In this document: piece by piece, positions 185 through 63,998 of the stretch
Layout: every line of letters begins with the position of its first letter
How positions within the stretch are numbered: position 1 is the stretch's first letter
Assembly: GCA_034509925.1 (NCBI GenBank)
Contig: CM067536.1
Span: 770,001-834,000, forward strand
DNA length: 64,000 nt
DNA from: Hirudinaria manillensis
Taxonomy: Eukaryota; Annelida; Clitellata; Hirudinida; Hirudinidae
Direction: 5' to 3'
Notes under the pieces: generated by a model
What the model was told of the DNA's origin: nothing
The model's input: only the letters and a program-made list of their open reading frames with translations
Database searches by the model: none
Translations under genes and position numbers: made by a program

Positions 185-2282
185 ATGGTTTCATTTGGAA
201 AATCACTTTTCTATGTCTCAATGACAATGTATTTCATATTAGCTAATTATTTTTTATTGGCGCAAGTTTGCTACTTTACTTTACCATTGCTATCGTCGAG
301 CATTCCACGTAAGTGAAATCATATAAGTTGGAATTTCAGAAAATAATTCAAATTTGTTTCTGCTAAAGTTAACCAATTAATAATTACTAACTTATAAATT
401 ATATTTTTTTGGTCAAATATAAAATTCGCAATAAATAAATAATGTATTACGTAATAATGTTTAATGTAATATACCTCTTTGAAGTGAAAACTGAGGAATA
501 CTGCCATTCTGATATATTTGCTCCGAGATGCGACCGAAACCAAATACTGGTTATTGAAAGCGCTATTTACGGTCGCAAGAAATTTGGAAGATGTCTTTTG
601 GATGAGGAAGATCCATCAGAGGGAAATCACGATGATCCGAGATTTATTGGGTGCTACAGTGATGTGAAAAGCCTAATACTGCCTAAATGCTTTGGGAAAC
701 GAGAGTGTGACTTGAGAATCGTTGAAATAAAAATCAGCACTTCTTGCTATAAATACCTAAAACTCTACCTCGAGGTCAGCTATTCATGCATAACAGGTTC
801 GTATTATTATATAATTATTATATAAGTATTAAAGCCAATAAATCCATTTAAATGGTGGTTTTTTTCTTAATAATTTCTTCAGAGTTCTTTACGAAAATTT
901 TTGAGACTCAACCAAAGTAAATGAGCTAACTAAAAATTATTTATATTTAATTTCATCAAATTTTCAGTAGCCCAACCAAACAACCATTGCACCATGAGTG
1001 CATCTCAGGAAAGGCAGTACTTGTTTGGCCCTCATAAATCTTCTTGTGGCTCACAAAGTCATCCTTGGCTAATTGAAACATAAGCGGGACAAAGACTTTC
1101 ACTGAGTGGAATAACTTTCATAAGCAACAGATCCTCATTATCAGAATCTTCTTCCTGCAAAATATACGGACAAGTTTTGGACAAAACCTCTGGAAATTCT
1201 AAAACACCGATTTGTTTGAGATTTGACCAGCAAGAAACACAGATTTATAACTCCAGGTCAAACCAAGTGGAAGTTTATTTCACTGAAGACACTTCCAAGG
1301 ATATAGGAAACTTTTTGATTTCTATTGAAGGTTCGAACGTAATGTTTCTAATGGATTGAATTTAAGAATTCTTCAGCTGTAAATGGTTTATTTTAAAATA
1401 CATAATAGGTTACATACAAAAACATGTAATTTAATTTTGACGATTAATATCGTCATATTTAACAGCCACAGGATGTTCTGATCTGATTCCTCCAGCTGAT
1501 GCCTGGTTGAAGAGAACTGAGAACGAGGCCACCATCGGATGTTATTCCACTCGACTCAGATGGCAACTTAAATGTCAAGGACAGCGTTGGGTCGGCGTCA
1601 TTGGAAACTGTAGCTATGGTGATTGAAACCCAAATTCGTTGAACGTGCAACTATTTTATGGATGTTAATATTAAATTCCGTCGTTTCATGACAGGACATT
1701 CAATGGAGCACGTTATGGAAGTTGAATATGGAGAAGTTAAACAAGCAGACCAAAAACGTATTGCAACTCGCATCATTTTCAACAAAAATAAATTTATTAT
1801 GATTCCAAAATTGAAATAATTTTTATCGATTGTAGTGGCAGCCATTTTCATGATTGTCGTTGTTGGATTTGTCCTCTGCCTCCTCATTGGGTGTGTAGGA
1901 GTCGTCTGTTTGAAGAGGTTAAAAGTTAATTTAGCTACTTTTGTATGCACTTTAATCTTTCATATTTAATAAATATAACAAACCTTATTATTTGATCCAA
2001 TATTTCACATATTAATTTATAATATTTTTTGATAAATAATTACATTTATCTAGATATTATGCTCTCAATAAGCTGAAAAGCCTGAAGCAGATGAATGGAT
2101 TCATGAATGCCAATCAGCATCTTTATAATGCCGAGTCAATGCTACCTACAAAATTTACTGTGGATTCGAATGAACTTGGAAACTCGAAAATCGATTTACC
2201 ACAGAATGGGACCCTGATAAATATTGATTCAACGCAGTATTTTGAACTTGATCAAAGTCTCGTAGCAAAAGAAGTCGTCTAA
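185..2282 (+). pseudogene. Array gene 1: SUEL/CUB-like/CCP-like receptor with an in-frame stop
   Basis: Exons: 185-308, 485-796, 968-1330, 1466-1618, 1695-1757, 1836-1917, 2054-2282 (442 codons if the stop is ignored). Signal exon, lectin-like domain (about residues 42-145, AIYGRK), CUB-like domain (146-266), CCP-like module (267-317, SDLIPPADAWLKR), stalk, TM (339-365), tail ending QYFELDQSLVAKEVV. In the CUB-like exon the position equivalent to Leu in IEALTGQ of its relatives is TAA (1081-1083), which would cut the protein before the TM segment. All other exons and splice sites are open, so this may be a young pseudogene, a null allele or a sequence error. ATG 221 or 227 is a likelier start than 185 because TATA is at 176. 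An AATAAA signal follows the stop near 2286. Confidence 0.75.
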
Positions 2283-2357
2283 AAATAAATAAAGAAATAA
2301 GTGAAAAAATCTTGAAATAACTGCCATGACATGTTCGAGTTCAAAACCTCACTGTTA

Positions 2358-2372
2358 CATAAATCGACCCTC
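2358..2372 (+). promoter_or_regulatory. Degenerate copy of the shared promoter motif before gene 2
   Basis: ATCGACCCTCA-type sequence matches only the core of the array motif (CGACCC) about 200 bp before the gene 2 ATG, and no clear TATA box follows. It is the poorest match in the window and may be chance or a decayed site, which would fit different regulation of the phosphatase gene. Confidence 0.3.
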
Positions 2373-2567
2373 AAAATCGAATTTCGTTGTACGAGAAAAA
2401 ATTTGTGATCCATTAAAGGGATTAGCCCCGATAGATTTCGTTTCATTACCATTGCATGCAGTAGCGCAACTAAACATAACCTGACATTCAACATACATAT
2501 TAGCAACACTTAAATATCCCGGCACTCGACAGCGAAAAGAACATTGTTTAACTTCTTATCTCTGAAT

Positions 2568-5500
2568 ATGTTTAGAACGATTTTCGTCGTGGTATTACTT
2601 TTGTTTGGAACGTCACCAACAACTTCATATTTCACAGGTTTGATATCATTCAAAATTGTACGGCACTTTTGAAAATTTATAAAACGTTTCAAATGATTAA
2701 CAAAACTTTAAAATCAATAAGGAGAATACTGTCTGTATGAAGTCTTCCAGCCGAGTTGCCCGACCTATGAAGCTGTTGTCATAACCCAAGCACGGTTTGG
2801 TCGAATGAAATTTGGCAAATGCATAGAAAAAAACCTGAGATTTGAGTTACTTTTAACGAATCCTCAATATCTCGGATGCTTCGTTGATGTTACGAAGGAT
2901 CTTAATGATCGATGCATTGCTAGAAAAAACTGCACGGTTAAAGTGATAGATTTAAGTGTGGAAAAAAAAGCTCCCTGTTCTGAACATCTTGTGATGTACC
3001 TTGAAGTGGAATACAAATGTTTACCAAGTAAATAATTGTTTATTCATTCAATTTGTAAGAAAGTTGCTGATCTGTGCGACATTAAATTACTGTTAGCAAT
3101 CGATGCTTAACCTGCATAAGCCTTAATTTTAATTAAGTTGTTCAAGAAAACCGACAATGTTTGGTATCACTCAGTACAAATAACGTTCAATATCTGATGG
3201 AGAGAAACGTGAAATCAGAAGAAAAATTCTGCGGTACTCAGAAGCAGCCCTGGAACGTGGAAGCATTGAAAGGTCAAACTATAAAGGTCACCAGACTCAG
3301 ACAGACTTTAGAGGAAAATATTTCAAAGTCCATTGAGAAATCGTCATGGAGCTGTACAGAGAGTTCTATAGAAGGCCACGTCTACGATTCAGAAGCAAAG
3401 ACTAAAATTGCTATTTGTAAAGAAAGGTTTCATTATAATTCAAATTCGAATCAATTGGATATCGTTTTAGCACCAAAATATGAAGAAACAATACTCATAA
3501 GACTGGAAGGTTTAAATATTTATTTTTCTTATAAATATTCAATTAATATTTCAAAAACGGTATTTAAAAAAGGCCTGATTTGGCAATTGCTTAGCCACAG
3601 GATGTTCTGATCTGATTCCTCCAGCTGATGCCTGGTTGAAGAGAACTGAGAACGAGGCCATTATCGGATGTTATTCCACTCTAATCAGTTGGCAACTCCA
3701 ATGCCAAGGACAACGCTGGGTCGGCGTCATTGGAAACTGTAGTCACTGTTAGCGTCATTCAGAACAAACGTTATCATTACTAATTACTGCTGTTTATATT
3801 TCAAAGTTTCAAGTAGTAGCCATCTATCCGTAACAACTCTCATGACTCCCGTGACAAACGCCCATAAAGGTAAATATATATAATATTTGTAGAATTACTA
3901 ATAATCTGATTTTAGAAACACGTCTAATTTAAAATCAATTTGCAATAAATGTTAGTCATTATGATTGACAAATTTTGAGGCGCTGCAGAAGAGCTTGAAT
4001 TTTCTAAAAGATCAATGAAGATCAACAAAGATAAATAAGTACATAAATAAATAAATAAAAATAAGTCAAGGATGAGCAATACAGTGCGTGTCATAAGGTT
4101 GGGACAGGGGCTAAAGTTTTACATTTTGTCTAGTTTTCTGAAAATCCGTAGCGTGTAATTGCCCAAAGTTTCAATTATTTCATGCCTCTATTCTCACTTA
4201 ATAAAATTTCAATATGTTTGTGAAGCATAATTTGAATATGAATGACACTACTTGGAAAAATCCCTTTGATGTTGTTTAGAGGCGTTTCAAAGATTAAGGA
4301 TGGTGTCTCTTCCTGTGCAGGAAATAGCATTTTATTACATGGACCACTACTAGTGGCTATTATAATAAGGTTATATATATGAAGGGTAATGTTAAATAAT
4401 TATTTGATTAAATAAAAAAATGCTAGTTAAGCTTATTATAATTGGATTCTTGTTGAAATGGAGAAAGGACAAATTAAGGTATTAAATGGGCTAAATAAAG
4501 TCATTTTCTGAAATTTCAAAAGTGTCTAAATGTTCCAGAAATGTTCTCAGATGATTTTTAAAGGATCCAGATAGTTATAGAACCACCTAAGTATAAGAAA
4601 GACCTCGAACACTGGATCATCGTCAAAAGAGACTTCTTGTTCGTGAAGCTTGCAAGGGAGAATTCTCTTCAACGGGGCTTGAAAAAAAGTTGAAATTGAA
4701 TTTAAACAAGTCTCCAATATGTAGATACCTTCGAAGAAGCCGATTTTTAAAGTATAGAAAGCGCCAGTAGAAGACATTCTTGACAAAACATCACAAAAGG
4801 ATTTGATTGAATTGGCTCGAAGAGATGATGAGTTTGAATGTGATTTGGAGCATTACAATTTTTCAGTTGAGAAACATTTTAAGTTTGACAGTCCATATGG
4901 GTCCAAATGTTATTGGCATAATGTCAGAAGTCCCTAAAATCACTCTTTGAAAAGAAATTTTGGAGGTCATTGTTGGGCTGCCATTTCTTCTCTTGATTCA
5001 TCAGATGTGGTGGTCTTAAAGGGGAAACAAAATTGCTCAGAATGTGTTTAAATTATAAAAAAAATACCTCCTATGCCTATACATTAGATTTAAAATGGAT
5101 AAGGTTATCTTTTAACAAAATAATGGTTCCATCCACATCTCAATACCAAAAAAGGTTATTTTCCAGAAGAAGAATCTATGTCTTAAAGTGGTCTGATTCG
5201 ACTTCCGGCCCAAATTCCTACTGAAAATGTGTTGGGATTCCTCAATAATCAAGTATATTCTAATGTTATGCAAAAACCTAGCACTTTGAATTGCAAAAAA
5301 TGTCTGAGCGAGGAGATGATAAAGTTGGACAATAAGAGGCTGAAACTCTTGTTGAAATCAATGAAAGATCGAGTTCAGGAAGTATTTCAAAAAAAAGAAT
5401 GACAAAACACATTGTCAGCTTTATTTATTTTAGATTTTAAACGTTTGTTTCAACCGCAAAAATAAAGATTTTTGCTTTCATATGAGGTTCACCGACTTTC

Positions 5501-8500
5501 ACTTTTTATCATATTTCCAGTTTTTTGCTTAAATTACAAAATATAGTTGCCCAAAATCACTGAAATTAATATCTCCCAGTAGCTAATGAACATCTATGTA
5601 TCATATAAATAAATGGTTTATATATGACTTTTATAAACAAAATTATGGCTAAAAAACGTGGGTGTCCCAACCTTATGACACGCACTGTATATAGGCCCTC
5701 AAGTTTTAATTGCACACAAGCAAAATGTGAAACCCATGTCAGTAGAATTTCTAGAAGGCAATAATAAGCTTGCATAAAAAACAATTGGTTCTATGAAATA
5801 TACCAACGCACTCAGCATAGTACAGGTGGAACCAGAAATATCGCCAAAGCCGAGGGAGATTTAGAGATAAATTACTCCGATAAATTTTAAAGTATTAACA
5901 TAAATACTGTGAGTTTTTACCAGATCATTATTATATTATATTATTATAGTGTTTAAAACAAAGTTTAATTTGTAGATCTTCCAATGGAATTCAATGTCCT
6001 CCTTGTTGTGGTTGCAGTAGGAATTATCATTGTATCCTGCTTAATTCTTGTGACATTTTATTGTTATCTGAAAAGGTGAGCTCTGACCGATGCCTTGCAT
6101 TTCAAGTTTCTCAATTGTAAAATGAATTTATTTCCAGGAAGAAAATCCGCATGAGAACCTCAAATACTCAAACAATGCGAGAAAGTCCAAGTTTGTCACC
6201 AAACATTAATTTAATCGATTAATTATGAACGATTAAATGTTTTAATGTTTGTTAATTCGAAAATTACTGAATCTGCAATTATTACATCCACAGGGTAGTT
6301 AATTAAGGTAATAAAAATAAAACTGTAACTTTCGCTTTGTGAAGTTCCACTATGATTATAATTATATAAATTTGAATTCTTAGCCATAGCTTATAAATTA
6401 TTAACTGATAATTATTGCTCAAACACTTACGACAGACATCTCGGCTCCGAAAACTTACACCAAGTTAATAAAGAGAGGCCTCGAAATGAAATACTTCCCA
6501 GCATACGTACTTGAAAAGGAGCACGTATTTCCAGAGAGATTTAAAGTAAATTATAATTTGATGCAATATTATCATACTGTAATAACCCGGGGTCCTCAAA
6601 CCAATTATGGAAGGTCAGGTTTATTGAAAGTGTTCAGATGGCTTGGAAGATGTACAATGCTTAATTGTCTAAGTCTTGGAATCTGTTGTATCTCACTCTC
6701 GCTGAACTTTTCGAGATAACTCTATTTGTCGAGATTCATAACAAAAGACCCTGAACATATAATTTTAATTATTCTTCAATTATCTGGATCCAGGGATCCA
6801 ACAATACAATTAGTTTTATTTCACATTGCTTTATGCAGTCCTTGCCAGAAATTGACGTTTCGAAAGAGCTGGCTCAAGTTGAATCGAAAGCAAACAGATA
6901 CAAAAATATAGTTCCTTGTAAGTTAATTTTTCTTTAAAACCATTCTAGTCTCAATATTAAAGAAAATTATGATGTTTACTTTCGTACCAAATTGGTGATC
7001 ATATTGTAATGACCCGGGGTCCTCAAACTAATTATGGTAGGTCAGGTTTATTATACACTTTAAGTGTTCAGATGGCTTGGAAGATATTCAAGGCCTAATT
7101 GTCTGGGTCTTGGAATCTGCCAATTCTCTCAATATTATCACTTAGCTATTTAACAATCAACAAATTTCGAAATAATTGTTCAGATGAGGATAACAGGGTT
7201 AAGCTGAAAATTCCTGAGAGTGAAGGCACAGATTACATAAATGCAAGTTATATAGAGGTATATTACCCATTCTAACTATCGATTTATTAAAATTTTCAGT
7301 ATGTTATTTTATTAAATGCCTATATTTGTAGCGTGTTATCGATATTTTCATTTCTGTTAATAGGTTGTTATTATGTTGTTTATTTTTTTATATTTACTTG
7401 TTATTATTTATATTTATTTGTATATTGCATATATTTATTAACTTTTTTATTTCTTTAACATCTGAAGAATGTTTTGGATACAACACTGATAGCCACACAA
7501 GGTCAGTTGATGATGTTTTACAAATATCGCTCAAATTAAGATTTGAACAATTGTTAGTAATGATTTTATAAAGTAATCCATATCTTAGAAGAACATATGG
7601 CTAACATTATTTAAAAAATTAATAAAACAATATATTTAAATGCTTTAAGTCCTTTACTATGGTTCGGATGAGATAAATGCACTTTGATAAATAAATGTTT
7701 TCATGTTGAAAACCAACCATTTTCTCGAAAGGTCCAACCAAAGAAAGCATCGAAAGTTTTTGGAAAATGATTTGGCAGGAAAATGTCGGAATAATTGTAC
7801 AGTTGTGTAACTTTGTCGAACTGACAAAAGTACGATATTATTTTATATTTTAAATGTTTATTGGAAATAATCCACGGTCGAAGTTTTTGGTATATAAAGA
7901 CCTTTCAATATTTTCAATGTTTCATGATTAATAACACCCAATATTTTTTTGTGTTGTGTTTATTAATTTAAATACGAAACTTATTTAAAATGATTTATAT
8001 CGATAATTAATTAGGTTAAATGTGAGGAATATTGGCCATCAGTTGGCAGCACTTGTTATGGGGACATTGAGATAACAAACCAGTATTGCTGTCAATGGCC
8101 TGAATATAAAGTTACCCAATTGATTCTGGAAAAGGTTATTCTAAAGCAAATGATTTGTTTTTCTCTCTAATCTCCTACCTGGTAATTATTAGTTATATTT
8201 ATATTAATTATTTTGAAAAGAAGGATGTTGGCAGCAGTCTATCAGTGATCCACTTCCACTACACAAATTGGCCAGACCATGGTACGCCTGAAAATACTCC
8301 ATATTTTCTGGAATTTAACAGACATTTCAGGAAAATTTACGAAATTTGCCGTTTACTGTGTTATGGAGTCGTCGTTCACAGCAGGTAATAAAGTAAAAAT
8401 AATAATAATATTTGTATTTTCAATTGCAAATAGACTTTCTTAATCTAAAGTATTACAAATATATGGTATGAACGATTTTACAATAATTTTTGACAACTCT

Positions 8501-10492
8501 CTGAAGAATACAATTATATACAATCAATATCAGATATAATTATGCCACTCATTGCGAACATAATCGTTCAAGAACTCGCGGGATTGACTCAAAACATAAA
8601 TGTCCCACAATTATTTTCTTTTGAAAAAGTGCGGGAATAGGAAGAACTGGTACCTTCATAGCCATTACGGATCTTATTACAAGAGGTTTGGCAGGAGAGC
8701 CAATTAGTGTCTCAAAATGCGTGGACGAACTTAGAAGAAGCAGAATGAAAATGGTTGAGAATGAGGTTAAAGTTTCGCATTTGGTGTCACGAAAATCCTC
8801 ATTGATTCATCATTGATTTATTTGATGCCTGGTGATTTCATATTATATTTTAGACATTTATCGTAAATGAATTGAATTCAAGGCACTGCTAATTTATCAA
8901 AGATTATTTCTTCGTCTGGTTATTTAAGCTGAAGTTAAATAAGAATTTGCGAATTGTGTGATTTTAGGACCAGTACCACTTCATATATGAATGTTTGGTA
9001 GACGAGACGATTTTGGGAGAGTTGAATTTCTGTTCTCAAGATTTTCTTTTCATTACGATGGAGGAGGAAATATTTAAGAAGAGATTGAGGAATCAATATG
9101 AAGTACATTAGAAAATATATTTCCAAATAATTTAAAAACAAATGCGCAATTTGAATATAAATTATATTATATATCTATGTTATTAATTTATTAAATCAGC
9201 GTCTATAACACTAACAATATAACACTATACAAAACATTTAAATATTAATTAATCCTTTATTTGATTGAAAATATTACAGCGCCTTCAGACACTTCTGAAT
9301 TCAGAATTTACCGGCGAGATGAATATCATTCAAGTATTTAAATTATTTTATAATATGAAATAAATGTTAAAATATAAAATGTATTTTAATTATTAAATTG
9401 GCTAATTAAATTATTTTTATTCCAGTTAGTGACCAGCTCATACAGGTTTCACATGATTCGAAGTGGAACCAGAGAGGAATTTTGGGCTGAATTACCGCAA
9501 GAATGTGATTTGGTTATTGTTTTGAACGAAAGACAGGTAATATTTATTAACTCATTAATTTGATTTATTAAAAGCGGTTTTTAACAAAATAATTCGTTAA
9601 AGAATCTCGTTCACAGGAATATTTTCAAGATTTCAAGCTTCCAGTAGAAACAGGAAAGAATGTGATAACGTTCTTGGATCAAACAGATTCAACTGATATA
9701 AAATTGATTAATCTTTTTATATCCGAAAAAGACAATTTAGACGCCGAGGAAAGACCCAAGATTAATTTATTTTACGTGAGAAATTAAAATTAAAATACTT
9801 GTGGTGGATATATTTAAGACATAACCATTATGATCGTGTTTAGGAAAACTCTGAAGATCATGTAAAGTCGGAAAATAAGCAAATCACTTTAGTTTTTGTC
9901 CAAACAAACGAAAATATGGATTTCATCTACGGTACCTTCATTAAGCTGTTCAGAATGTTGAAGCCAAATTCTTTGACTTCTTTGTTTTGCTCGTAAGTTT
10001 GAAATAATATGATTGGATAAAAACGAAATCTCGGCATTTGTAGCATAATTATATAATAAAACCATTTTTTTTGTATTTATACAGAGATGAGAATATGGCA
10101 GGAATTTTTATGACGTTCTGCAACATTTTAAGCCAACTGATGGTTCGAGATGAAGTAGCTATTTTTCAAAATATCCTGGAAATACAATGCAATGGCTATC
10201 GTTACGGTCTTAGTTTGGTGAGTGTTCTAATTAGGCAAGAACTCAAAGGAAGCTGGTTTCACTTTCAACCAATTTCTAAAACAAATGTACAAATGAAAAA
10301 ATGAAATAGACCGATAGCTTATTATATAATTAAATGTAATTTAATATTATCTGCTAACACCACTTTTAATTATCGTGTCTAAAAAAAATTATTTTGAAAT
10401 TGTTTATGAAATTTGATGTTCAGGAGGACTATGAAAAGTTACATCAATTGGTCTTTGAATATCTCCACGATGAAACAAATAAACGTTTTTGA
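2568..10492 (+). CDS. Array gene 2: receptor-type tyrosine phosphatase with SUEL/CUB-like/CCP-like ectodomain; D1 is a Cys-to-Ser pseudophosphatase
   Basis: Twenty-two exons, about 910 residues: 2568-2637, 2722-3027, 3147-3509, 3595-3747, 3807-3869, 5976-6075 (TM), 6138-6190, 6436-6545, 6839-6917, 7184-7257, 7468-7501, 7732-7829, 8015-8134, 8221-8384, 8630-8765, 8968-9102, 9280-9333, 9426-9536, 9617-9775, 9844-9992, 10085-10217, 10424-10492. All junction phases agree. Signal peptide, lectin-like domain (about 24-125, ARFGRM), CUB-like (126-246), CCP-like (247-297), TM (about 325-350), then D1 (about 385-704) and D2 (705-910). D1 keeps ANRYKNIVP, DYINASYIE, LIATQGPT, NWPDHGTP and GIGRTG, but the nucleophile is serine: HSSAGIGRTG, codon AGC at 8380-8382. 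D2 has a reduced domain whose P-loop (SDENMAGIF) lacks the arginine. Both domains should be inactive; binding of phosphotyrosine tails is inference. The exon 7 donor (6190 or 6184) is weak; without it the frame stops at 6220-6222, giving a short tail. Confidence 0.85.
4082..5687 (+). mobile_element. Tc1/mariner-type DNA transposon in intron 5 of gene 2
   Basis: A 1,606-bp element with perfect 25-bp terminal inverted repeats starting CAGTGCGTGTCATAAGGTTG, flanked by TA on both sides (4080-4081 and 5688-5689), the Tc1/mariner target site duplication. It lies between the ectodomain exons and the TM exon of gene 2, in the same orientation, and does not touch a splice site. It makes this intron about 2.1 kb, far longer than the matching intron in other array genes. 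Confidence 0.93.
4440..5405 (+). pseudogene. Decayed Tc1-like transposase
   Basis: Translated pieces in several frames match Tc1-family transposases: ERPRTLDHRQKRLLVRE near 4595-4650, FDSPYGSKCYWHNVRSP near 4884-4935, then KRNFGGHCWAAISS, a QNNGSIH segment in place of the family's QDNAP-H motif near 5115, and a DSTSGPNS-like stretch near 5200 equivalent to the family's SPDLNPIE motif. Stops and frameshifts separate the pieces, so the copy cannot make transposase. Confidence 0.8.
6571..6685 (+). repeat. Intronic direct repeat, copy 1
   Basis: About 115 bp, with landmarks ACCCGGGGTCCTCAAA, AATTATGG, GGTCAGGTTTATT, GTTCAGATGGCTTGGAAGAT and GTCTTGGAATCTG. It is repeated in the next intron of gene 2 (6999-7120), so two related copies bracket the small exon 6839-6917. 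It has no coding features; it may be a short dispersed repeat. Confidence 0.8.
6999..7120 (+). repeat. Intronic direct repeat, copy 2
   Basis: Second copy of the repeat at 6571-6685, same orientation, with a short insertion (TACACTTTAA-like) after GGTTTATT and scattered substitutions. It lies in the intron between exons 6839-6917 and 7184-7257. Confidence 0.8.
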
Positions 10493-10955
10493 CTATTTTT
10501 TACTATTAATTTGATTATGTTGAAGAATATGTAAGAATTCCATTTCATTCATTTTATGTTCATTCTTAGTTATAAGTTTATTTAGTACATTTGATATCTT
10601 TTGCATTAGGGTTATTAACTTTGCGTTGCTAATTTATGTTGCCATGGTATATTTATTTTTCATTACAAATTTTGTGATCAGTTTCTTAGTTGTTCCGATT
10701 TTTTATATTTTTTTTTAAAGTCAACTTTTCAGTCTTTTTAAAATTAAAAATGTTTTAAACCTGCCTAATAAACTGATGATAAAGTGTTTTGTTCAAAGAA
10801 ATTATTGACTCCAGAAGTTGTACTTAATTTATGTTGTTAATTAATAACTCGAGTTCTTAATTTCAATTGTAATGTAAAGGGGTTGTTACAATTTTATTAC
10901 GTAAAAGTAGTATGAAATCCAAAACGTTCAATTTTGTTGAACAAATTACTCGTCA
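10493..10955. other. Intergenic stretch after gene 2
   Basis: About 460 bp of AT-rich DNA between the gene 2 stop and the gene 3 promoter motif. It probably holds the gene 2 3' UTR. I see no further gene or repeat here. Confidence 0.6.
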
Positions 10956-50691: not shown

Positions 50692-52637
50692 ATGCTTAGG
50701 TACATCTTGCTATACTTTGTCGTCAATGATTTGCTTTGCGTCAATTCTGAAACAACGACAGGTTTGATTTAGACCATTGTCTTGCGAAATGTTTTTTTTC
50801 CAAATAACTAATTAATACAAAACGAAAGCAGAACTTTGTCTTTGGGAGGTGTTTAAGCCGGAATGTGGAACAAATGAAATAGTTTTTATAAACGATGCAA
50901 GATATGGAAGAATGAATATTGGAAAATGTTTATCAAAATCTGATGTCGAAGCTCTCGGCCCTCAGAGCCAAGATCCCCGAAGCTTTGGTTGTTATGACGA
51001 CGTTACTGGGTTTTTGAACAAAAGATGCTTTGATGAAAAGCAATGTGAAGTCAGAGTGGCAGATATGGAGCAGCTGAAACACTCCTCGTGCATACCCGGA
51101 CTGAAAATGTATTTGTTGGTGGCTTACATCTGTTTGCCTGGTAAGATTGCATTACTCATACATGGAAATATTGAATTACAAAATACCGGAAATACTACAG
51201 TAAGGTTCAAGTTAAAAGATAAACTCGTTTTAAAACAGTTGTTTACAAAGATTTCTAATAAATGGAATGTAATTAGTAATTTTTAAATGAGTGATGACTT
51301 AAATATTGGATTATTTATTCACTAATATATTTATTTACTGACTATTCTGCAGTACTTCATCAGTCAGATAGTTGCCACATGTTTCTATCGTCATCCCCAA
51401 AGTACTCATCAATTTCAATCATGAAAAATATGTCATGCCTCAGCACAGGTGATCCGCTCTTAATGGAAGTCCCAAAAGGACAAAGAGTTAAACTTACTTA
51501 TAATGTCATCGGTAAAAACCAACACTTGGAACGGAGTGACTGCAAACAAGAACTTGGTTTGATAGTTTTGAAGAAATCCAACATCAACGTAACTATATGT
51601 GAAACGGGATTTTATACCCCTAAAAGTCCATCAAATATTCAGCAAAGCTTTACATCTGACGGCAATGCTATACATTTATTTATATATCGATTGAAACACT
51701 ACGAAAATGTTCTATTGGAAATGAAAGGTAAGCAACCAATATCCATCACCCGTTACGTGTTCCTCTACATTATATAAAAATTTACATTAAAAAACAGTGT
51801 TACATTGTTTTAAAACAATCAATGCTTTACATGCTGATCATACGCTACTTGGTGATATATTTTCACTCAATCAGCTGAAGGATGTCTGGATATAATACCG
51901 CCTGAGGATACATGGCTGAAGAGAACGAACGATGACATTGTTATCGGATGTTATTCATCCAAACAAACATGGTATCTGAGATGCGAGAATGGACAATGGA
52001 CAGGCGTTATTGGCAATTGTTCCAATCCAGATTCATTTATTACCAGAAAAGGTGATTTTGATATTTGATATTACTATTGTGCCATATTAATCTTAACTAA
52101 TTCTACACAAGACAACTATGAAAATAATGAAGGTGTTACAAATTTGAAGCTAAACATGTCCGCAAGTTACCAAAGTTGGTATTAATATCTGCTGGCCTTT
52201 ATCCACTTGTCTAATTTGATAACGACCAATTTTATTTTAGCCTTGATCATAATTTCAATATGCGGATTTGGTTTGGTGACTTGTTTGGCGATTGTTTGTC
52301 TGGGATTCGTCTACCTAAAAAAGTAATAAAAACATTACAAATGAAAATGATATTATAAATTTTTGTTTTTACAAATCAGTAATATTTTAAATTTATTTTT
52401 AGGATGAAAATAAAGGAAGCCAAAAAGGATGGATACATGATGGGGCCAAACTTGTATGGCAATTCTACTTATGGCCAAGTTAACCGCTATCCAGATAGCA
52501 ATGGTTTCAATGCCCAAACTCTATTTTCATCAACTTTTAATAAAATCCCACATTCCGATAACGGAGCAACTGAAGATGAAAGATATCAAGTATTGGACAG
52601 AGACGAAGTTGCCAAGGAATGCCCTGCTTTTGCATAA
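50692..52637 (+). CDS. Array gene 21: SUEL/CUB-like/CCP-like receptor, subfamily B
   Basis: Exons 50692-50761, 50832-51140, 51353-51727, 51875-52051, 52112-52174, 52241-52322, 52403-52637; 436 residues. Signal MLRYILLYFVVNDLL, lectin-like 24-126 (ARYGRMNIGKC), CUB-like 127-251 (LSTGDPLLMEVPKGQ), CCP-like 252-310 with a NPDSFITRK extension, TM 332-358 (CLAIVCLGFVYLKK, where the last TM cysteine is Tyr), tail 359-436 ending ERYQVLDRDEVAKECPAFA. Confidence 0.88.
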
Positions 52638-52671
52638 ATATGATTCGTTTCAAATTTATAATTGGAACGTT

Positions 52672-53157: not shown

Positions 53158-55066
53158 ATGGTTGGCTCATATTTGCTTTATATTTTTCCCGTTTTCTTTT
53201 TGAAACCAGTTCTAATGCATGAAGGTTACGATTTCTTAAAAGTTCTTAATTTTAACAAGATTTTTAAATGAATTTTTTAGTTTCTGGTTCTTATAACATT
53301 TCTTTTGGTATTAATTTTGGTCTCAGAATTTTGTCAGTTGGAAACTTTCCAGCCGAAATGCCAGGGTACAAACGAAGTCGTACTGATGACATCTGGAACG
53401 TACGGGCGTATGGAGGTTGGGAAATGTATAACACAAGAAGAACTTTCTGGTAGTTACAGAGATGACCCAAAATATTTCGGTTGTAAGAGCGACGTTCTAG
53501 AGTTATTGCATAACAAATGTTCGTTGAAACCCACTTGTGAAATCAAGATACCGAATGCTGACTTGGACAAGACAAAACCCTGCCTCCCAGGTCTAAGGTC
53601 TTACTTGCAAGTGGCATTCACATGCATCGCTGGTAATTATAACTTATTTTATGTGTTAACTTTTAAAAACTATTTTGACTTTTAAAATTTTTTTAACTTT
53701 TAAATTGATAAACTTACTAAGCAGTGAAAAACCAACACTTTTAGTTGTCGACCACGACTCAAATTGCATGATTCAAGCATCCACAACGATTTCAAAGCAC
53801 CTCACCCTAAAAGGAATCTTGAACAATACGAACTGTGGCACCAAAAGCAGACCGTGGATCATAGAGGCGTCCAGAGGTCAGAAAGTGCAAGCATCGTTTG
53901 TCAACTTAAAGAACAAAAAAGATCAGCCGTTACAGTCGAGCTGTGGCTATGAAATTGGTACCTTCAGTGAAAGGAGTTCAACGGGCATAAAGAACGTTAC
54001 TTTATGTAGTGGTGGAAAATTCCATTCACCTCTGAGAAACTCGGCTCAATCGATATCCGACGATGGATTGATGATCACTTCAACCGGAAGCGTTCTAGAG
54101 TTGATTGTTGGTTCCCAGTTAAAGGATTATCTGGCCAACGAAAGATCTTACATTGGAATGCTTCTTAAAATCGAGGGTAACATTGCATATAATGTAATAC
54201 TTTTTTTAAATTATACATGATTATAATTCTGCTGTTTTATGTCTAATTCCAATAGCTGATGGGTGTCTGGACATCATACCTCCAGAGGATACGTGGTTGA
54301 AGAGAAACGGTGATGACATCGTCATCGGATGTTATTCTTCTAAGCAGACGTGGTACCTTAGATGCGAAAACAAGAGGTGGAGCGGAACAATTGGCAACTG
54401 TTCTGCCATAAATAGTAAATTTTATTACTACTAAAATTGATTTTACTAGTAATAAATTACTCATAAATAAATTGTTTAAATTTTAAAACCAATTTAAAGA
54501 CGAAGTGAAGGAAAATGGCGAGATTCAAAAGCTCGACGAAATTCCAAGAGAACACATGAACGAGGAACAGCAAAGTAAACTAAATTTGATTTTTAAAATG
54601 TAAAAATTACCCAACAACAATTAATTAATTATGTAATTTATTTGTACTTTTAGTATTAATCATAGTGGCCATTTGTGGCGTAGGATTGGTCATATGCTCT
54701 GCAATCATATGCGTGGGAGCAGTTTGTCTCAAAAGGTAAATTTTAATTTAATTGGTTTTTTTTTAATTTCTAAAAAGTAAAGAACTCCTCACAAATTTTG
54801 TCATTTCTAATTTGATTCAATCTTAACGCTCAGTTTTATTTTTCTAAAGGTTGACAAGAAAAAGATTGGCTGACAATCTCTATATAAAGCAACCCATTTA
54901 CTACCCAACAGTAAATGGGGAATCATTGTCCAAAGCAATTCATTCTGGTTCCTATGGCAACCAGGAGAACAAGGCTTTGGACACATCTGTCGGATACGAA
55001 GGAAACATGGATTACAACAACAAAGAAAATAATTATTTCATCCTAGAAGGAGCAGATACAAACTAA
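53158..55066 (+). CDS. Array gene 22: SUEL/CUB-like/CCP-like receptor (duplicate of gene 19)
   Basis: Exons 53158-53224, 53327-53632, 53745-54176, 54256-54414, 54500-54574, 54654-54735, 54850-55066; 445 residues, exon lengths all equal to gene 19. Lectin-like 23-124 (GTYGRMEVGKC) has several replacements against gene 19 (for example SGSYRDDPKYFGC for SGIHGENPEYFGC). CUB-like exon and CCP exon are nearly identical to gene 19. Tail ends NNYFILEGADTN. Confidence 0.88.
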
Positions 55067-55437: not shown

Positions 55438-57387
55438 ATGGGGTTCACTATTTTCTTGCGAATAGCATTTATCAATGCTTTTGCAAGTCTAGTTCTATTG
55501 CAGTTGTCAGACTGCGATTATTTAGAAAATTTGGAAGGTGAGATTAAATAACAGTTATGCGAAAGTTTTATTTAATACTTTATTAATTAATTGTTAAATC
55601 GTACTCGATTTAAGAGTTCTCTTGATAAAAAAAATTGCTTCACTGGTTTATAATGTTTAAATAGTTATATATTCTAAAGTTAAATAATTATAGGAACAAA
55701 TCGTGAAGAGCTATGCATTCAAGAGACATTCAAGCCAAGTTGTCCACAGGGTGACGTTGTGTTTGTGAGCGAAGCAAAATATGGAAGGATGAACATTGGA
55801 AAATGTCTCAGCGAGAAGGAACTGGAAACGTTCGGTCCATTCAATAAGGATCCAAGATACGTTGGATGCTTTGATGAAGTCTCACAGATGTTGAATGACA
55901 AATGTTCGTTCAAGAATGACTGCATTATAAAAGTCAGCGATTTGCAGACAGATGCCAGATTGCTCGAAAGCACTGTCTGTTTTCCAGGATTGATTAAGTA
56001 TTTAGAGGTACAATACAGCTGCCTCTCAGGTAATTTTTGATTGTTTTCGTCAAATAAAAAAATTTAAAGATAGAAACATTGAATATTGGCTTACTAGGAG
56101 AAAGAATTTCGAGGTTATTTGATTTGATTGAAAATGTCTTTTTCAGTTCTTGGATCAAACGGAATTGAAAATTGCAAAGTAACACTGCCAAGGAAGACGA
56201 CGCATCTGAATCCGAATATAGTAACCAATCAGTGCAAATCCATGGGAAATGGTTTATTGATTGAGGCTCCAAAAGGCCAAAGAATCAAATTCACAATCTT
56301 TCATCGCAGCAAATTTGCTAATGAAAAATCTGAGAACTGGCCAGCAGGTCGAGCAAGTTGCGGCTCACTGATGGCAGACATTAAGGACATCGTCGGCAAA
56401 ACAAATGCAACCGTGTGTCAGAATGGATTTTTAATCACGGATTCAAAAAATCAGGGTCAAAATTTCAAGACAATTTTTCAGACTAAAAGCCATTTAGCTG
56501 AAATAGTCTTGCTTCCGACTGATGAGACTGGAAATAATTACTTGTTGCGTTTGGAAGGTTTTTAAAATACATTATCACGAAGGAGTTCAATATTTTAAAG
56601 GAGTGTCCTTTCAGTTGAAGGTTGTTTGGACATTATACCCCCTGAGGATACTTGGTTGAAAAGGACAAACGATGATATCGTCCTGGGATGTTATTCTTCG
56701 AAAAAGACGTGGTATCTTCGTTGTGAGGGTGGAAAGTGGAGTGGAACCATTGGAAACTGTTCTCAACATTCTCAAAATTTGGGTTTAAACATTTAAATTT
56801 TAATGATTTCATAAACCGAGTTCTTGAATTTTTGAAATTGACTTACTTAAAACTTGATTTGAAGATTCAACTTTACTAGAAAATGATGGTGACGAAACGA
56901 TAAAAAGTGGGAAAATAACAATGTCTGAAAATAGTCAAAGTACTGTTTATTGCCTTTAGTTACTTTTAAAAATTAAAATTTATTTAAATTTATCAAACTT
57001 TTATTTCAACAGTTCTCATCATAATCGTCATCTGTGGATTTGGTTTAATAGTCTGCTTTGTTATAGTATGCTTAGGAATGATATGTTTGAAGAGGTAGAA
57101 AGGAGAAAATTTGTGTTCTGTAGTTATTTGTAAATTTTCTTGAATCACATTTGTGAATTTTTAGATTTAAAAGGAAGGATGTTCCAATCGCTGACGAGAA
57201 AATACCAGGATCAATGCACTACTCCACTTATTGTGCAAATCCAAACTTCAATGGAACAGTCAGACCTTTTAATCCCACAAATCTTAATCAGTTTCCCCAA
57301 TTGGATGAGTCTGCAGATCAGGAAAGATATCAAGTATTGGACAAGGATGAAGTTGCAAAGGAGTCTTCGCTTCTTGCCGATTACTAA
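55438..57387 (+). CDS. Array gene 23: SUEL/CUB-like/CCP-like receptor (duplicate of gene 20)
   Basis: Exons 55438-55537, 55694-56029, 56147-56557, 56615-56782, 56865-56939, 57013-57094, 57165-57387; 464 residues, all exon lengths as in gene 20. The first half of the lectin-like domain (AKYGRMNIGKC) is almost the same as gene 20, while the second half (after the FDEVSQ segment) is clearly changed, for example DLQTDARLLESTVC against DLLDNRRLLESNAC. TM ends CLGMICLKR. The tail keeps ERYQVLDKDEVAKESSLLADY (57324-57384). Confidence 0.87.
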
Positions 57388-57541: not shown

Positions 57542-57687
57542 ACAATTATGGATCGTAGTGATTTGTTTAGGATGTTCAAGTAATTTGGGCAGTATATATT
57601 AAAAGATTTTTCAGATTCAGAATGTTTAAGGTTGTCGAAGCTTACAGCACAATCTTTAGTTTAACTTCTACAAATCAGTCGATGAGT

Positions 57688-59574
57688 ATGTTTAGGTTCA
57701 TCTTGTTATACTTAATTGGTAACAGTTTGCGCTGCACCGATTCTGAAATATCTAAAGGTTAGACTTAATTACATTTTGGTCTTATGCACTGGGTAACATT
57801 GTCCATTTATCTGTAAAGTGTTATTTAATGTCACAAACGAATTACACAGAACTTTGTCTCTGGGATGTTTTTAAACCAGAATGCACTCCAAACGAAGTAG
57901 TTTTTGTGAATGATGCGAAATATGGGAGAATGAATATCGGGAAATGTTTGTCAAAATCCGATCTTGATACTCTTGGCCCTCAAAGTCAAGATCCTCGATA
58001 CTTTGGTTGTTACGATGATGTTACAGGTTTTTTGAATAAGAAGTGTTCTAATGAGAAACACTGCGAGCTCAAAGTTGTTGATCTGGAGAAAATGAAATAC
58101 TCATCATGTATTCCTGTATTGAAGATGCATTTAACTGTTAAATACGTCTGCTTACCTGGTAAGTGCACATTAATGATATGCTAAGTCAGGAACAATGAGG
58201 TTTATTTTCTTATATGTTTAGTGGAATTTTGTAATGTTAACTTTATTTCTTATTAACGTATAGCCTAACAAAATAATTCATCTTGCAGTACTTCATCAGT
58301 CTGACAGCTGTCATGTTTTTCTCTCATCCTCTGCAAAATACTTACCAATTTCAACCGCACAAAATATGTCTTGCATCAGCACAGCCACTCCGATTTTGAT
58401 TGAAGTTGCAAAAGGACAAAGAATTAAGCTTAGTCACAAAGCTCTTGATAAAAACCAATTCATGGAACGGAATGACTGCAAACAAGAACTTGGTTTGATA
58501 GTTTTGAAGAAATCCAACATCAACGTAACTATATGTGAAACGGGATTTTACACCCCTAAAAGTCCATCAAATATTCAACAAAGCTTTACATCTGACGACA
58601 ATGCTATACATTTATTTATATATCGATTGAAACACTACAAAAATGTTCTATTGGAAATGAAAGGTAAGCAACCAATATCCATCACCCGTTACGTGTTCCT
58701 CTACATTATATAAAAATTTACATTATAAACAGTGTTAAGTTGTTTTGAAGCATTCAATGCTTTACATGCTGATCATACGCCACTTGGTGATATATTACAC
58801 CATTTTCAATCAGCTGAAGGATGTCTGGACATAATACCACCTGAGGATACATGGCTGAAGAGAACGAACGATGACATTGTTATCGGATGTTATTCATCCA
58901 AACAAACCTGGTATCTGAGATGCGAGAATGGACAGTGGACAGGCGTTATTGGCAATTGTTCCAATCCAGATTCATTTATTACCAAAAAAGGTGACTTTGA
59001 TATTTGATATTAGTAATGAGGCATATTAACCTTAACTAATTCTACACAAGACAACTATGAAAATAATGAAGGTGTTACAAATTTGAAGCTAAATATGTCT
59101 GCAAGTCACCAAAGTTGGTATTAATATCTACTGGTCTTTATTCACTTGTCTAATTTGATAATGACCAATTTTATTTTAGCCTTGATCATAATTTCAATAT
59201 GCGGATTTGGTTTGGTGACTTGTTTGGCGATTGTTTGTCTGGGATTCGTCTACCTAAAAAAGTAATAAAAACATTACAAATGAAAATGATATTATAAATT
59301 TTTGTTTCTACAAATCAGTAATATTTTAAATTTATTTAGGATGAAAATAAAGGAAGCCAAAAAGGATGGATACGTGATTGGGCCAAACTTGTATGGCAAT
59401 TCCACTTATGGCCAAGTTAACCGCTATCCCGATAGCAATGGTTTCAATGGCCAAACTCTATTTTCATCAACTTTTAATAAACTCCCACATTCCGATAATG
59501 GATCAACTGAAGCTGAAAGATATCAAGTATTGGACAGAGACGAAGTTGCCAAGGAATGCCCTGCTTTTGCATAA
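57688..59574 (+). CDS. Array gene 24: SUEL/CUB-like/CCP-like receptor (duplicate of gene 21)
   Basis: Exons 57688-57757, 57850-58158, 58289-58663, 58814-58990, 59051-59113, 59180-59261, 59340-59574; 436 residues, exon lengths as in gene 21. An in-frame ATG at 57682 would add two residues. Lectin-like 24-126 (AKYGRMNIGKC), CUB-like 127-251 (first half diverged from gene 21, second half nearly identical), CCP-like 252-310, TM 332-358, tail ending ERYQVLDRDEVAKECPAFA. Confidence 0.88.
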
Positions 59575-59979: not shown

Positions 59980-61913
59980 ATGCTTTCTGCCATTGTTTTA
60001 ACAACCGTTGTCTGCTTTTTAAATGCAGGATCTGCTAAAGGTTACAATTGCAATTTAAACATACAGTTACAAATATTAAATAGTTACATTTTAAACTATT
60101 ATATTGACTTCTGAAGTTATTCACAAATTGACATTTACATAGATATGTTGGCTGAAATATGTCTCTGGGAAGCCTTCAAACCCGAATGTTCTTCCAGTGA
60201 GGTGGTGTTTGTGGATGATGCAAAATACGGACGGATGAGAATAGGAAAATGTCTGTCGCAATCTGAAATCGATTCCTTCGGACCCCAAAGCATGGACCAC
60301 AAAGTCCTTGGCTGCTATCACGATGTTACAGCGGTTGTTAGCAGGAACTGTTCTCTCGAAAGACAATGTGAGCTGAGATTGGGAGTTCTTGAACAACTAA
60401 AAAATACTGAATGCTCGCCAGGATTGAAAATGCATCTCGAAGTCAAATATTTCTGTCTACCAGGTTATAATGGCTAATAAATTAATTTGAAATACTTTTT
60501 ATGAAATACGTGGCTTTTTTTATGAATAGTTCTTGATCAATTCACAACTGAGTGTCAGATTTTCCTGACTGGAACTCCAAAGTATTTATCAATCACACCA
60601 AGGAATAACATTATATGCGGAACTGACGCTAACCCCTTAGTGATAGAAGTCTCGAAAGGACAGCGCATCAGTCTCACTGTGAAACCATTGAAAGAAAGTG
60701 AAACTTTGGAAAGACGGGAATGCCAGAAACGGATTGGCACCATAATCGATGGAAAACGTCAAGACAATGCTACTATTTGTGACAATGGAATTTATAATCC
60801 AAGCAAGCATTCCTATGTGACTAACGGTTACATATCTAAAGAAAATCATATAGGTGTGATATTTAACAGATTCGAAAACAATTACAAAGTGCTACTTGAG
60901 ATGAAAGGTCAGTGAAATAACTGTAATAAATATTGACATAGCAATTATTAAGACTAGTAATATTCATAATAGTCATTACAATGGCGAATTTATAAAAAAA
61001 AAACTATATCTGTAGCCCAGTAAGCCATGTTGGAAATTTGGTAAGTTTCCTTGTTAACTACAATAAAAAAAAATTATGTATTATTGCCATTAACCAATTC
61101 TAAAATATATATAAAGATAAGTTGTTATTATCTATTCGTGTAGCTGATGGTTGTCTGGACATAATACCACCTGAGGATACATGGCTGAAGAGAACGAACG
61201 ATGACATTGTTATCGGATGTTATTCATCCAAACAAACTTGGTATCTGAGATGCGAGAATGGACATTGGACAGGCGTTATTGGCAATTGCTCCAATCCAGA
61301 TTCATTTATTACACGAAAAGGTAATTTATATATTTAATATTAATTCGTTAGTAATATGTCATTGGTATGAATGATATTTTAGGCAATAGCTATGAAAATA
61401 ATGAAGACATTACAAATTTGAAATTAAAGATGTCCGAAAGTCACCAAAGTTAGTACTATAACGTGCATATGGATACTAAACCATTTTGCAAGCCTAGTAA
61501 TGACCAATATTATTTCAGCCTTGATAATAATTTCCATCTGTGGATTTGGATTGGTGACTTGTTTAGCAATCGTTTGTCTGGGATTCGTCTACTTAAAAAA
61601 GTAATGAAATTCATAATAATTAATATGTGACTCCAAAATCTCCAAACAATTTTCGAAAATCATTAAATTTGTTTCTAGGATGAAAATAAAAGAAGCTAAA
61701 AAGGATGGGTGCATGATGGGGCCAAATTTGTACGGCAATTCTACTTATGGCCATGTTAACCGCTATCCAGACAGCAATGGTTTAAATGGACAAACTTTAT
61801 TTTCATCAACTTTTAATAAACTTCCACGTTCTGACAATGGCGGAACTGTTGATGACAGATATCAAGTATTGGACAAAGATGAAGTTGCCAAAGAATGTCC
61901 TGCTTTTGCATGA
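59980..61913 (+). CDS. Array gene 25: SUEL/CUB-like/CCP-like receptor, subfamily B
   Basis: Exons 59980-60040, 60143-60463, 60530-60907, 61144-61320, 61383-61448, 61519-61600, 61679-61913; 439 residues. Signal MLSAIVLTTVVCFLNAG, lectin-like 21-127 (AKYGRMRIGKC), CUB-like 128-253 (CGTDANPLVIEVSKGQ), CCP-like 254-312, TM 335-361, tail ending DRYQVLDKDEVAKECPAFA. The 236-bp intron 3 is longer than usual, as in gene 26. Exons 4-7 are close to gene 24, exons 1-3 to gene 26. Confidence 0.88.
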
Positions 61914-62140
61914 AGTGTAATTCATTTTAATTTTCATGCCGCAACAATGCTTTTATTTCATGGCTGGTTTAAAATGAAATCCAATAACCGTGTTGCGCTG
62001 TGTTTTTTGGATTTTTCTTGAAATGTTGGATATTTCTATGTTATAATAAACTTTTTAATTGTCTGCATTCTAAAGATTATAGATTAATTCTTTTTTACTG
62101 TGTTTATGAAATTACGAGTTTATTTTATGTTTTGGGACTT

Positions 62141-62201
62141 TTTGAGACGTCCCCTCAAAATTTCAATGCGTAAGATTATCTTACTTTATCCAATATAAAT
62201 G
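62141..62201 (+). promoter_or_regulatory. Promoter of gene 26
   Basis: TTTGAGACGTCCCCT at 62141-62155 and TATAAAT at 62195-62201. The stretch from the gene 25 stop to here shows nothing else. Confidence 0.75.
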
Positions 62202-62311
62202 TGGGAAGAAACACCCTAGACCACCATAATACGTGTTGTTGGATCTAATTTCCGTTAGTTGCCATAGTCTCCCTTTTAAAATATTGAACATATAAAATAT
62301 ATGCCGAAATA

Positions 62312-63998
62312 ATGTTTGCTGCCATTATTTTAACAATCCTTGTAAGCTTTTTAAATTCAGGGGCCACTAAAGGTTATAATTACATTTAAAATATTTAAAT
62401 TTCAATTACATTTAAAATATTTTAATGATAATCAAAATTTAAATCGATTAATTTCTGTGTAGAGCTGTCGGCCGAATTATGCCTTTGGGAAGTTTTTAAA
62501 CCAGAATGTTCATCAAATGAAGTGGTGTTTGTGGAAGATGCAAAATATGGAAGGATGAGAATAGGAAAATGTCTGTCACAATCTGAAATCGATTCTTTCG
62601 GAACTCAAAGCATGGATCACAAAGTTCTTGGGTGCTATCATGACGTCACAGCAGTTGTTAGCAGAAATTGTTCCCTGGAAAGACGATGTGATCTAAAAGT
62701 TTCAAATCTTGAGCAGCTGAAAAATGTTGAATGCTCGCCAGGACTGAAAATGCATCTCGAAGTTAAATATTCCTGCTTACCAGGTTTTCAATCATTAATC
62801 AAATCTAAAATCGTAATTTCTTAGTGAAACTCATTGTGAAGTTTTAATTATAGTTAACGTAGTAAAATATGCTTAGTAGCTTATTTACTAGACAATGACA
62901 TTCTCTTCCTGAAGTTATTGATCAATTCACAACTGGCTGCCAAACTTTTCTGACTGGATCATCAAAGTATTTATCAATAACACCACGAAGTGCTGTTCTC
63001 TGCGGAACTGACGCTAACCCCTTATTGGTAGAAGTCTCGAAAGGACAACGCATTAGTCTCAATGTGAAACCATTGAAAGAAAGTGAAACTTTGGAAAGAC
63101 GGGAATGCCAGAAACAGATTGGCACCATAATCGATGGAAAACGTCAAGACAATGCTACCATTTGTGACAATGGAATTTATAATCCAAGCAAGCGTTCTTA
63201 TGTGACTAACGGTTACATATCTAGAGAAAATCATATAGGTGTGATATTTAACAGATTCGAAAACAGTTACAAAGTGCTACTTGAGATGAAAGGTCAGTGA
63301 AATAACCATAATAAATATTTAACTAGCAATTACTAAGACTAGTAATATTCATAATAGTCACTACAAAAGCGAATTTATAAAAAATGTATTAGATAGCCTA
63401 CTAGGCCATGTTGGAAATTTGATAAGTTTCCTTGTTAACTATAATAAAAAAAATTAACCATTAAAAAATTAACCAATTCTAATGCAAAACATATACAAAT
63501 AAGTTGATATTATCCATTCTTGTAGCTGATGGTTGTCTGGACATAATACCACCTGAGGATACATGGCTGAAGAGAACGAACGATGACATTGTTATCGGAT
63601 GTTATTCATCCAAACAAACCTGGTATCTGAGATGCGAGAATGGACAATGGACAGGCGTTATTGGAAATTGTTCCAATCCAGACTCATTTATTACAAGATC
63701 AGGTAATTAAAATGTTTTTAATAGGAGGGATTTGTTGAATTTCGAATGTGTAAACTAGTAATTATTTATAACTGATATTTTTAAAAGGCAATTATGAAAA
63801 TAATGAAGGTGTTACCAATTTGAAATTAAACATGTCCGCAAGTCACCAAAGTTTGTATTAATTCTTATTGGTCTCCGTCAATTTAACTAACCTGATGATT
63901 CCCAATTTTATTTTAGCCCTAATCATAATTTCAATCTGTGGATTTGGTTTGGTGACTTGCTTGGCAATTGTCTGTCTGGGGTTCGTCTACCTAAAGAG
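62312..63998 (+). CDS. Array gene 26: SUEL/CUB-like/CCP-like receptor, cut by the window edge
   Basis: Exons 62312-62372, 62463-62783, 62915-63292, 63526-63702, 63788-63850, 63917-63998; the tail exon lies beyond the window. Exon lengths 1-4 equal gene 25, and 2.3-2.4 kb separates matching exons. Signal MFAAIILTILVSFLNSG, lectin-like AKYGRMRIGKC, CUB-like CGTDANPLLVEVSKGQ, CCP-like with NPDSFITRSG, TM exon of 82 nt ending CLGFVYLKR with a GT donor at the last two bases, so the array continues to the right. Confidence 0.87.

Follow-up and report, generated by a model that had tools for sequence, protein, structure and literature searches.

The window analysed here, 64,000 nucleotides of the leech Hirudinaria manillensis (assembly GCA_034509925.1, contig CM067536.1, hereafter C11, positions 770001-834000), lies within a tandem array of about 47 genes. 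On the evidence of their sequences, and with somewhat better than even confidence, we read these genes as a local cluster of single-pass cell-surface recognition receptors with variable SUEL and CUB-like domains, a common membrane-proximal CCP-like module and one tyrosine motif. Within the window, iterated exon hidden Markov models (HMMs) identified SUEL, CUB-like and CCP-like exons, 26 of each, all on the plus strand and in the order SUEL-CUB-CCP. Successive SUEL exons start 2.03-2.50 kb apart, except for the 8.5 kb between genes 2 and 3. The initial annotation had described 26 head-to-tail genes with gene 2 set apart, which holds for the window, but the array itself is longer. Iterating the exon HMMs from window seeds in genome scans covering 148.4 Mb in 23 contigs recovered 46 genes on the plus strand (C11:747,727-862,209; g1 to g46, with g11 to g36 in the window), and all 46 contain the three domain exons in the same order. 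One inverted copy lies at 868 kb, and the whole array spans C11:747-869 kb, or approximately 121 kb, with four further SUEL exons found as satellites at C11 1.01-1.03 Mb. The limits originally given within the window, 185 and 63998, agree with the first exon (185-308) and the last transmembrane (TM) exon (63917-63998), while the last gene reaches 64312, beyond the window.

According to splice models, each gene begins with a signal exon, followed by the SUEL, CUB-like and CCP-like exons and then by one exon each for a short stalk, the TM segment (this exon is often 82 nt long) and the tail; TM segments and signal peptides were called from hydropathy alone. This seven-part anatomy had been proposed for all 26 window genes. 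The domain order is indeed found in 26 of 26, but gene 2 (g12) has receptor tyrosine phosphatase exons in place of a normal tail, and gene 1 (g11) is modelled without a stalk exon. The proposed intron phases (1,1,1,1,1,2) can be divided in the same way. The stalk, TM and tail phases, which were left free, came out as 1,1,2 in 24 of 26 window genes (18 exactly and six with an extra spurious exon; the exceptions are genes 1 and 2) and in 40 of the 46 array genes, whereas phase 1 was imposed at the borders of the signal, SUEL, CUB and CCP exons, which are hence consistent with the proposal and not independently found. Twenty-seven of the 46 automatic 3' models comprise exactly stalk, TM and tail; the other 19 (g1, g2, g6-g9, g11, g12, g15, g17, g21, g24, g26, g27, g37, g41-g43 and g46) lack an exon or have a split or spurious one, and tails were therefore counted on open frames. 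In addition, the first exon of g4 is mismodelled (it overlaps the tail of g3), the g39 model has no first exon, and exon 3 of g29 and g32 is 66 nt too short in the models and in alignment A1, with a better donor identified for both. In-frame stops occur in gene 1 (TAG in exon 3) and gene 17 (g27; TGA in exon 2, the SUEL exon), and also in the model of g41. Because g11 and g27 carry these stops and g12 is atypical, 23 of the 26 window genes look intact, g19 among them only with a GC donor.

The tails share little beyond a single motif. Y-[FYQ]-x-L-[DE] is found near the stop of the tail frame in 45 of 46 genes, the exception being g12, compared to two of 46 in an antisense control; median tail identity is otherwise 0.21 (31 tails compared). 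Once phosphorylated, Y-x-x-L-[DE] might signal through an SH2 protein, or it might drive AP-2 endocytosis. A serious, if tentative, alternative is that the genes encode innate immune receptors proper, which would meet microbial or parasite ligands on coelomocytes or in the gut and signal through YxxL in the manner of hemITAM receptors via Syk. The lectin-type and CUB-like domains and the large local copy number favour this explanation, as does an acidic residue within eight positions upstream of the motif tyrosine in 43 of 45 rows (excluding the spurious g12 row). Additionally, SUEL lectins are counted among pattern recognition proteins in a section of a paper on the annelid Olavius (PMC5117596). 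The tails contain 34 other Y-x-x-[LIV] words; therefore, YxxL is not always single, as the hemITAM comparison would want. A relic of the tail motif occurs at window position 52814, between g31 and g32, where a frame ending in NKYFILEDQIELK is the remnant of a lost further gene.

The genes also share a promoter element. The 16-bp element TTTTGAGACGACCCCT is present on the sense strand in 42 of 46 genes, approximately 65-172 bp before the modelled ATG, with two antisense; the motif was found by a post-hoc word scan and its matrix built from 24 of the 42 sites. One more TTTTGAGACGACCCCT site lies where the true start of g4 may be. Of 45 upstream stretches, 24 contain the exact core CGACCCC, compared to none of 92 control stretches. 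Genome-wide, the pattern TTGAKNCGACCCC has 63 matches, 25 of them in the 122-kb array region (including one on the minus strand before the inverted gene), while the reversed pattern has three. The common element may place the whole set under one regulator, and the 38 TTGAKNCGACCCC matches outside the array suggest that such a regulator is used elsewhere too.

The CCP-like exons fall into two types, type I in g1-g16 and g38-g43 (22 genes) and type II in g17-g37 and g44-g46. Between type I genes the 147-nt CCP exon has a median DNA identity of about 96%. In the left block, its protein identity is 96% and its proportion of synonymous differences (pS) is 0.125, compared to saturated values of 0.815 in SUEL and 0.765 in CUB exons (91 pairs), 0.783 in TM exons (78 pairs) and 0.806 in tail exons (45 pairs); these identity and pS statistics use 45 SUEL, 43 CUB, 46 CCP, 42 TM and 31 tail exons of the 46 genes. 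Conserved residues use the same codon at a frequency of 0.92 in type I CCP exons (9010/9797) versus 0.44 in SUEL (4565/10310), 0.45 in CUB, 0.38 in TM and 0.51 in tail exons, and CCP lies above SUEL in 230 of 231 type I pairs. Outside the type I exon ungapped identity is about 0.3, placing the edges at the exon borders; in the ungapped flank profile of the 20 of 22 type I genes with a 147-nt exon model, identity is 0.84 in the last ~10 intron nucleotides before the exon, 0.71 in the last exon bin and 0.45 in the first 10 nt after it. In g4, all 15 differences fall within the first 55 of 138 nt and are followed by 83 identical nucleotides, an arrangement reached in none of 20000 shuffles, while the same breakpoint test in four other genes found no such break (P 0.06-0.71; five genes tested including g4).

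We read the type I similarity as gene conversion limited to one exon, with a breakpoint inside g4, and conversion is probably confined to the CCP exon because the introns no longer offer homology. GC-biased conversion would be expected to raise GC content at third codon positions (GC3), which is not raised in type I CCP exons (0.421 compared to 0.409 in SUEL), and this form of conversion is therefore unsupported. It is most improbable that the exon is unconverted and that an RNA function constrains its synonymous sites. The coincidence of the high-identity edges with exon borders, save for the ~10 nt of preceding intron, and the unraised GC3 would fit such a constraint, but it does not account for 15 changes within the first 55 nt of g4, for the pS of 0.76 in type II CCP exons of the same array, or for a SUEL tree in which the type I genes of the left and right blocks stay apart. 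With a protein identity of 0.81 at that pS, purifying selection is enough for the type II exons. With homogenisation limited to one 147-nt exon beside freely diverging exons, the array provides a clean example of the process and a natural experiment in exon conversion.

A further explanation, which we consider unlikely, is that these are gamete or epithelial surface proteins expanded by drift, with the CCP exon homogenised merely as a conversion template that was still similar. SUEL domains were first known from egg lectins, and the similarity of type I CCP exons is independent of distance (0.975 in the left block, 0.970 in the right and 0.9725 between them, leaving out g4 and g12), both of which agree with drift. 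However, the motif in 45 of 46 tails speaks for a role in signalling or sorting, and the type II CCP protein is conserved without homogenisation.

The features of the window are as follows, all on the plus strand.

120..135: promoter element TTTTGAGACGACCCCT of g11, one among the 42 of 46 in the array
185..2282: g11 (gene 1), exons 185-308, 485-796, 968-1330 and 1472-1618, TM 1836-1917, tail 2054-2282; no stalk exon modelled; TAG in exon 3, probable pseudogene
2568..3869: 5' half of g12 (gene 2), signal exon, SUEL 2722-3027, CUB-like 3147-3509, CCP-like 3601-3747, stalk 3807-3869
5976..10500: 3' half of g12, possible TM exon 5976-6075, then receptor tyrosine phosphatase exons
11046..12970: g13, seven exons, CCP type I, tail motif YYELD
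12166..12312: type I CCP exon of g13 as an example, 147 nt
13195..15040: g14, CCP type I
15260..17182: g15, CCP type I
17535..19338: g16, CCP type I, last of the left block
19599..21620: g17, CCP type II, first of the middle block
21991..24182: g18, array gene
24490..26418: g19 (gene 9), exon 3 apparently spliced from a GC donor at ~25523 (GAAG/GCAAAA, the slash marking the exon end)
26618..28536: g20, array gene
28806..30764: g21, array gene
30914..32893: g22, pair of g24
33117..34997: g23, pair of g25
35223..37096: g24, array gene
37348..39202: g25, array gene
39429..41370: g26, array gene
41582..43496: g27 (gene 17), TGA in the SUEL exon, probable pseudogene
43902..46023: g28, array gene
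46228..48084: g29, first gene of the block g29-31 duplicated as g32-34; exon 3 end probably 47196, first modelled at 47130
48444..50407: g30, array gene
50692..52637: g31, array gene
53158..55066: g32, exon 3 end probably 54176
55438..57387: g33, array gene
57682..59574: g34, array gene
59980..61913: g35, array gene
62312..63998: g36, cut by the window edge, tail exon 64078-64312 outside

Exons besides the CCP exon are mosaic too. Between the duplicated blocks g29-31 and g32-34 (window 46200-52700 and 53130-59640), identity is 0.86-1.00 in the CUB-to-tail exons, 0.75-0.85 in SUEL and 0.53-0.68 in the intron after SUEL. In the second duplicated block (30900-34997 and 35210-39202), the pair g23/g25 is mosaic in the same way, while g22/g24 is not clean, its other introns being equally diverged. 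Altogether, SUEL and the following intron are far more diverged than the CUB-to-tail part in four of five recent duplicate pairs.

The three domain identities differ in strength. We regard the identity of the first domain exon as firm: two window exons scanned reached 35.8 and 36.8 bits against Pfam SUEL_Lectin (PF02140; cut-off 31.4), and 25 of the 26 window exons are among the matches listed in the genome scan, 22 above the cut-off and three just below it, with g14 not listed. In profile searches the SUEL exon matches the structures of CSL2, the rhamnose-binding lectin (RBL) 5h4s and latrophilin, and [YF]GR is conserved in 44 of 45 SUEL exons. A CUB identity is likely for the second domain exon, since a dispersed paralogue on C6 (L004) matches the array CUB model (E 4.8e-17) and passes Pfam CUB (22.9 bits compared to 21.4). 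For the third domain exon a CCP identity is plausible; its four cysteines and the tryptophan before the last cysteine are invariant (18 rows, alignment A2), and L004 reaches 14.3 bits against Pfam Sushi (E 0.055), below the cut-off of 20.7. Thus, of the domains initially named, SUEL passes its Pfam profile directly and CUB only via the paralogue, while Sushi is not reached. CUB-like and CCP-like exons had no matches to solved structures in profile searches, and an NCBIfam scan returned nothing meaningful. The array genes resemble RBL and latrophilin in the SUEL exon, but differ in combining one SUEL with a CUB-like domain, a CCP-like module and a single TM segment, rather than being tandem SUEL proteins or G protein-coupled receptors. 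EVA-1 is another SUEL domain protein.

Several of these results weigh against the recognition-receptor interpretation and the conversion proposed within it. In addition to the unraised GC3 and the promoter pattern matches outside the array, there was no Pfam CUB match in the four window CUB-like exons tried and no Pfam Sushi match in the array CCP-like exons tried. The SUEL exons also lack Glu after the first cysteine, DPC and GT-x-K, which we take to be the rhamnose-contact motifs of SUEL lectins. The residue after the first cysteine is Q, L, I, N, T, F, Y or H and is Glu in none of 45 exons, while Glu follows that cysteine in the solved RBL 5h4s and in two of nine dispersed relatives (L004 and L025); DPC and GT-x-K are each absent from all 25 SUEL rows. 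Sugar binding by the array SUEL domains may therefore be lost, and the missing rhamnose contacts count equally against innate immune receptors proper. Finally, dN (nonsynonymous) exceeds dS (synonymous divergence) in none of 10 SUEL and none of 11 CUB exon pairs, where pairwise averages are insensitive and dS is saturated in three SUEL pairs and one CUB pair. This result gives an arms race no support, though it is compatible with one; it also speaks against the innate immune explanation, while the lack of any sign of selection for diversity agrees with drift.

Under the favoured reading of a recognition-receptor cluster, the outer SUEL and CUB-like domains, which are very different between genes, would meet ligands or partner cells. 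The CCP-like module next to the membrane would be kept common to the genes, with gene conversion maintaining it in 22 of them and purifying selection in the others. The reason may be that this module pairs with a shared partner or, in cis, with other receptors of the set. The most probable use would be recognition by immune or epithelial cells, with the gamete surface and cell identity or adhesion as alternatives. Natural killer (NK) complex, KIR/LILR and Botryllus fester clusters likewise consist of single-pass recognition receptors with short tails containing tyrosine motifs, although their ectodomains are other than those of the array. Annelid recognition receptors are little known. Being compact (121 kb) and sharing one motif in the promoters and one in the tails, the array opens receptor choice, cis pairing and ligand binding to testing.

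It is decidedly unlikely, though worth setting out, that the array is a cell-identity or adhesion system working like the clustered protocadherins, with few promoters used per cell, specificity in the outer domains and promiscuous cis pairing through the homogenised module. As described in parts of the respective papers, conversion homogenises the 3' part of the variable exons and GC3 is raised in the fugu clusters (PMC1852091), and clustered protocadherins have a promoter conserved sequence element (CSE) and use the sixth extracellular domain (EC6) in cis dimers (PMC7811963). The array is alike in its tandem genes with their own promoters and an oriented common element (42 of 46), and in its diversified outer and homogenised membrane-proximal ectodomain exons. 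However, that homogenisation extends to just 22 of 46 genes, GC3 is not raised as it is in fugu, each gene has its own tail with no constant 3' exons, seven small exons replace one large exon, and there was no cadherin match in Pfam scans of the array SUEL, CUB-like, CCP-like and tail exons. By this analogy, the parallels would be ones of working principle and not of membership. Nerve wiring and regeneration have classically been studied in leeches. Very improbably, the array might be an invertebrate, non-cadherin counterpart of the clustered protocadherins, in which variable SUEL and CUB-like domains and a converted, interchangeable CCP-like module provide individual surface codes on leech neurons or coelomocytes.

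The combination of SUEL and CCP extends beyond the array to dispersed loci of this genome. Of the 90 places found with a CCP exon query, 47 belong to the array with its inverted copy, three to the satellites and 39 are dispersed, while the remaining one is a relic at 837 kb. For 24 of the 39 dispersed places, a SUEL match lies upstream on the same strand within 20 kb (hand count). In the SUEL tree, a single clade (support 0.865) unites 45 array genes with the inverted copy and three of the four satellites, relative to nine dispersed relatives, and this clade adjoins the C5 gene L025; the tree omits g27 and one satellite, and a dispersed gene was chosen as its root. The array therefore represents a local radiation of an older, dispersed family. 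The lineage expansion of the cluster, as earlier proposed, and the membrane-receptor nature of its genes are well supported, and the suggested use in immunity or self/nonself is a more tentative possibility. The description of the cluster as an undescribed family holds as far as a targeted full-text literature search extends, most subscription papers being outside its scope: neither a SUEL-CUB-CCP receptor family nor this array was described among the matches listed, and those listed for SUEL with CUB and receptor tyrosine phosphatases were unrelated papers. The word 'lectin' is absent from the main text of two leech genome papers (PMC10087013 and PMC10671345, main text in part), and a passage of a rotifer lectin paper calls the part played by SUEL lectins in lophotrochozoans still elusive (PMC8878817). 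A second SUEL cluster is located at C4:9.93-10.06 Mb; its SUEL domain is interrupted by an exon boundary near profile position 45, whereas the array encodes SUEL in one exon.

Gene 2 (g12) departs from the rest of the array. It is a sister of g43 (window +83774), 81 kb away, with identities of 0.95 in SUEL and 0.96 in CUB, and no trace of the g43 TM and tail exons was found within 3740-11000 of the g12 region (blastn and tblastx, E 1e-3). Instead, its 3' pieces at 6495-8768 are collinear with exons of the receptor phosphatase L028 (C11:3.39 Mb), and further D2-like pieces continue to ~10.5 kb (by eye). The joined pieces score 79 bits for Y_phosphatase. Joining 8384|8630 (the best splice sites) gives HSSAGIGRTG as the catalytic motif, in which Ser takes the place of the catalytic Cys; L028 and a further receptor tyrosine phosphatase, L029, read HCSAG there. 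Upstream, L028 has an F5/8C-like stretch (27.4 bits compared to a cut-off of 28.2) and EGF-like repeats (cysteine pattern by eye; Pfam E 0.061) rather than SUEL. The possible TM exon of g12 (5976-6075) was traced to neither g43 nor L028, and the frame of the exon after it ends at a stop near 6222, which only splicing from a weak donor at 6190 would avoid. Gene 2 would be a chimeric receptor whose phosphatase is dead or, alternatively, a fusion in decay. A phosphatase ending as the rule for array genes was considered and rejected, given the short motif-bearing tails of 45 of 46 genes.

Several minor observations concern this region and the genome at large. The stretch 4000-5700, between the g12 stalk and the possible TM exon, is transposon-like with broken frames, and two pieces tried had no Pfam match. 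Two copies of a repeat (CCCGGGGTCCTCAAAC...) lie at 6580-6700 and 7008-7130, in introns of the g12 phosphatase part. Exons encoding protein tyrosine phosphatase (PTP, PF00102) domains are clustered at C11:1.77-3.44 Mb, C4:10.31-10.46 Mb and C13:4.48-5.57 Mb, and at least 173 matches in the genome indicate a large receptor phosphatase expansion. The mitochondrial contig reads TGA as Trp and AGR as Ser, and its order cox1-N-cox2-D-atp8-cox3 (tRNAs identified by eye) is annelid-like. A tunicate origin of the DNA was considered and dropped, since AGR fits Ser in an alignment to mammalian-type COX1 and a search for GH6 gave no match, although the latter does not establish absence. A COX1 copy at C9:3026446-3027786 scores exactly as the mitochondrial one and is either a recent nuclear insertion or an assembly artefact.

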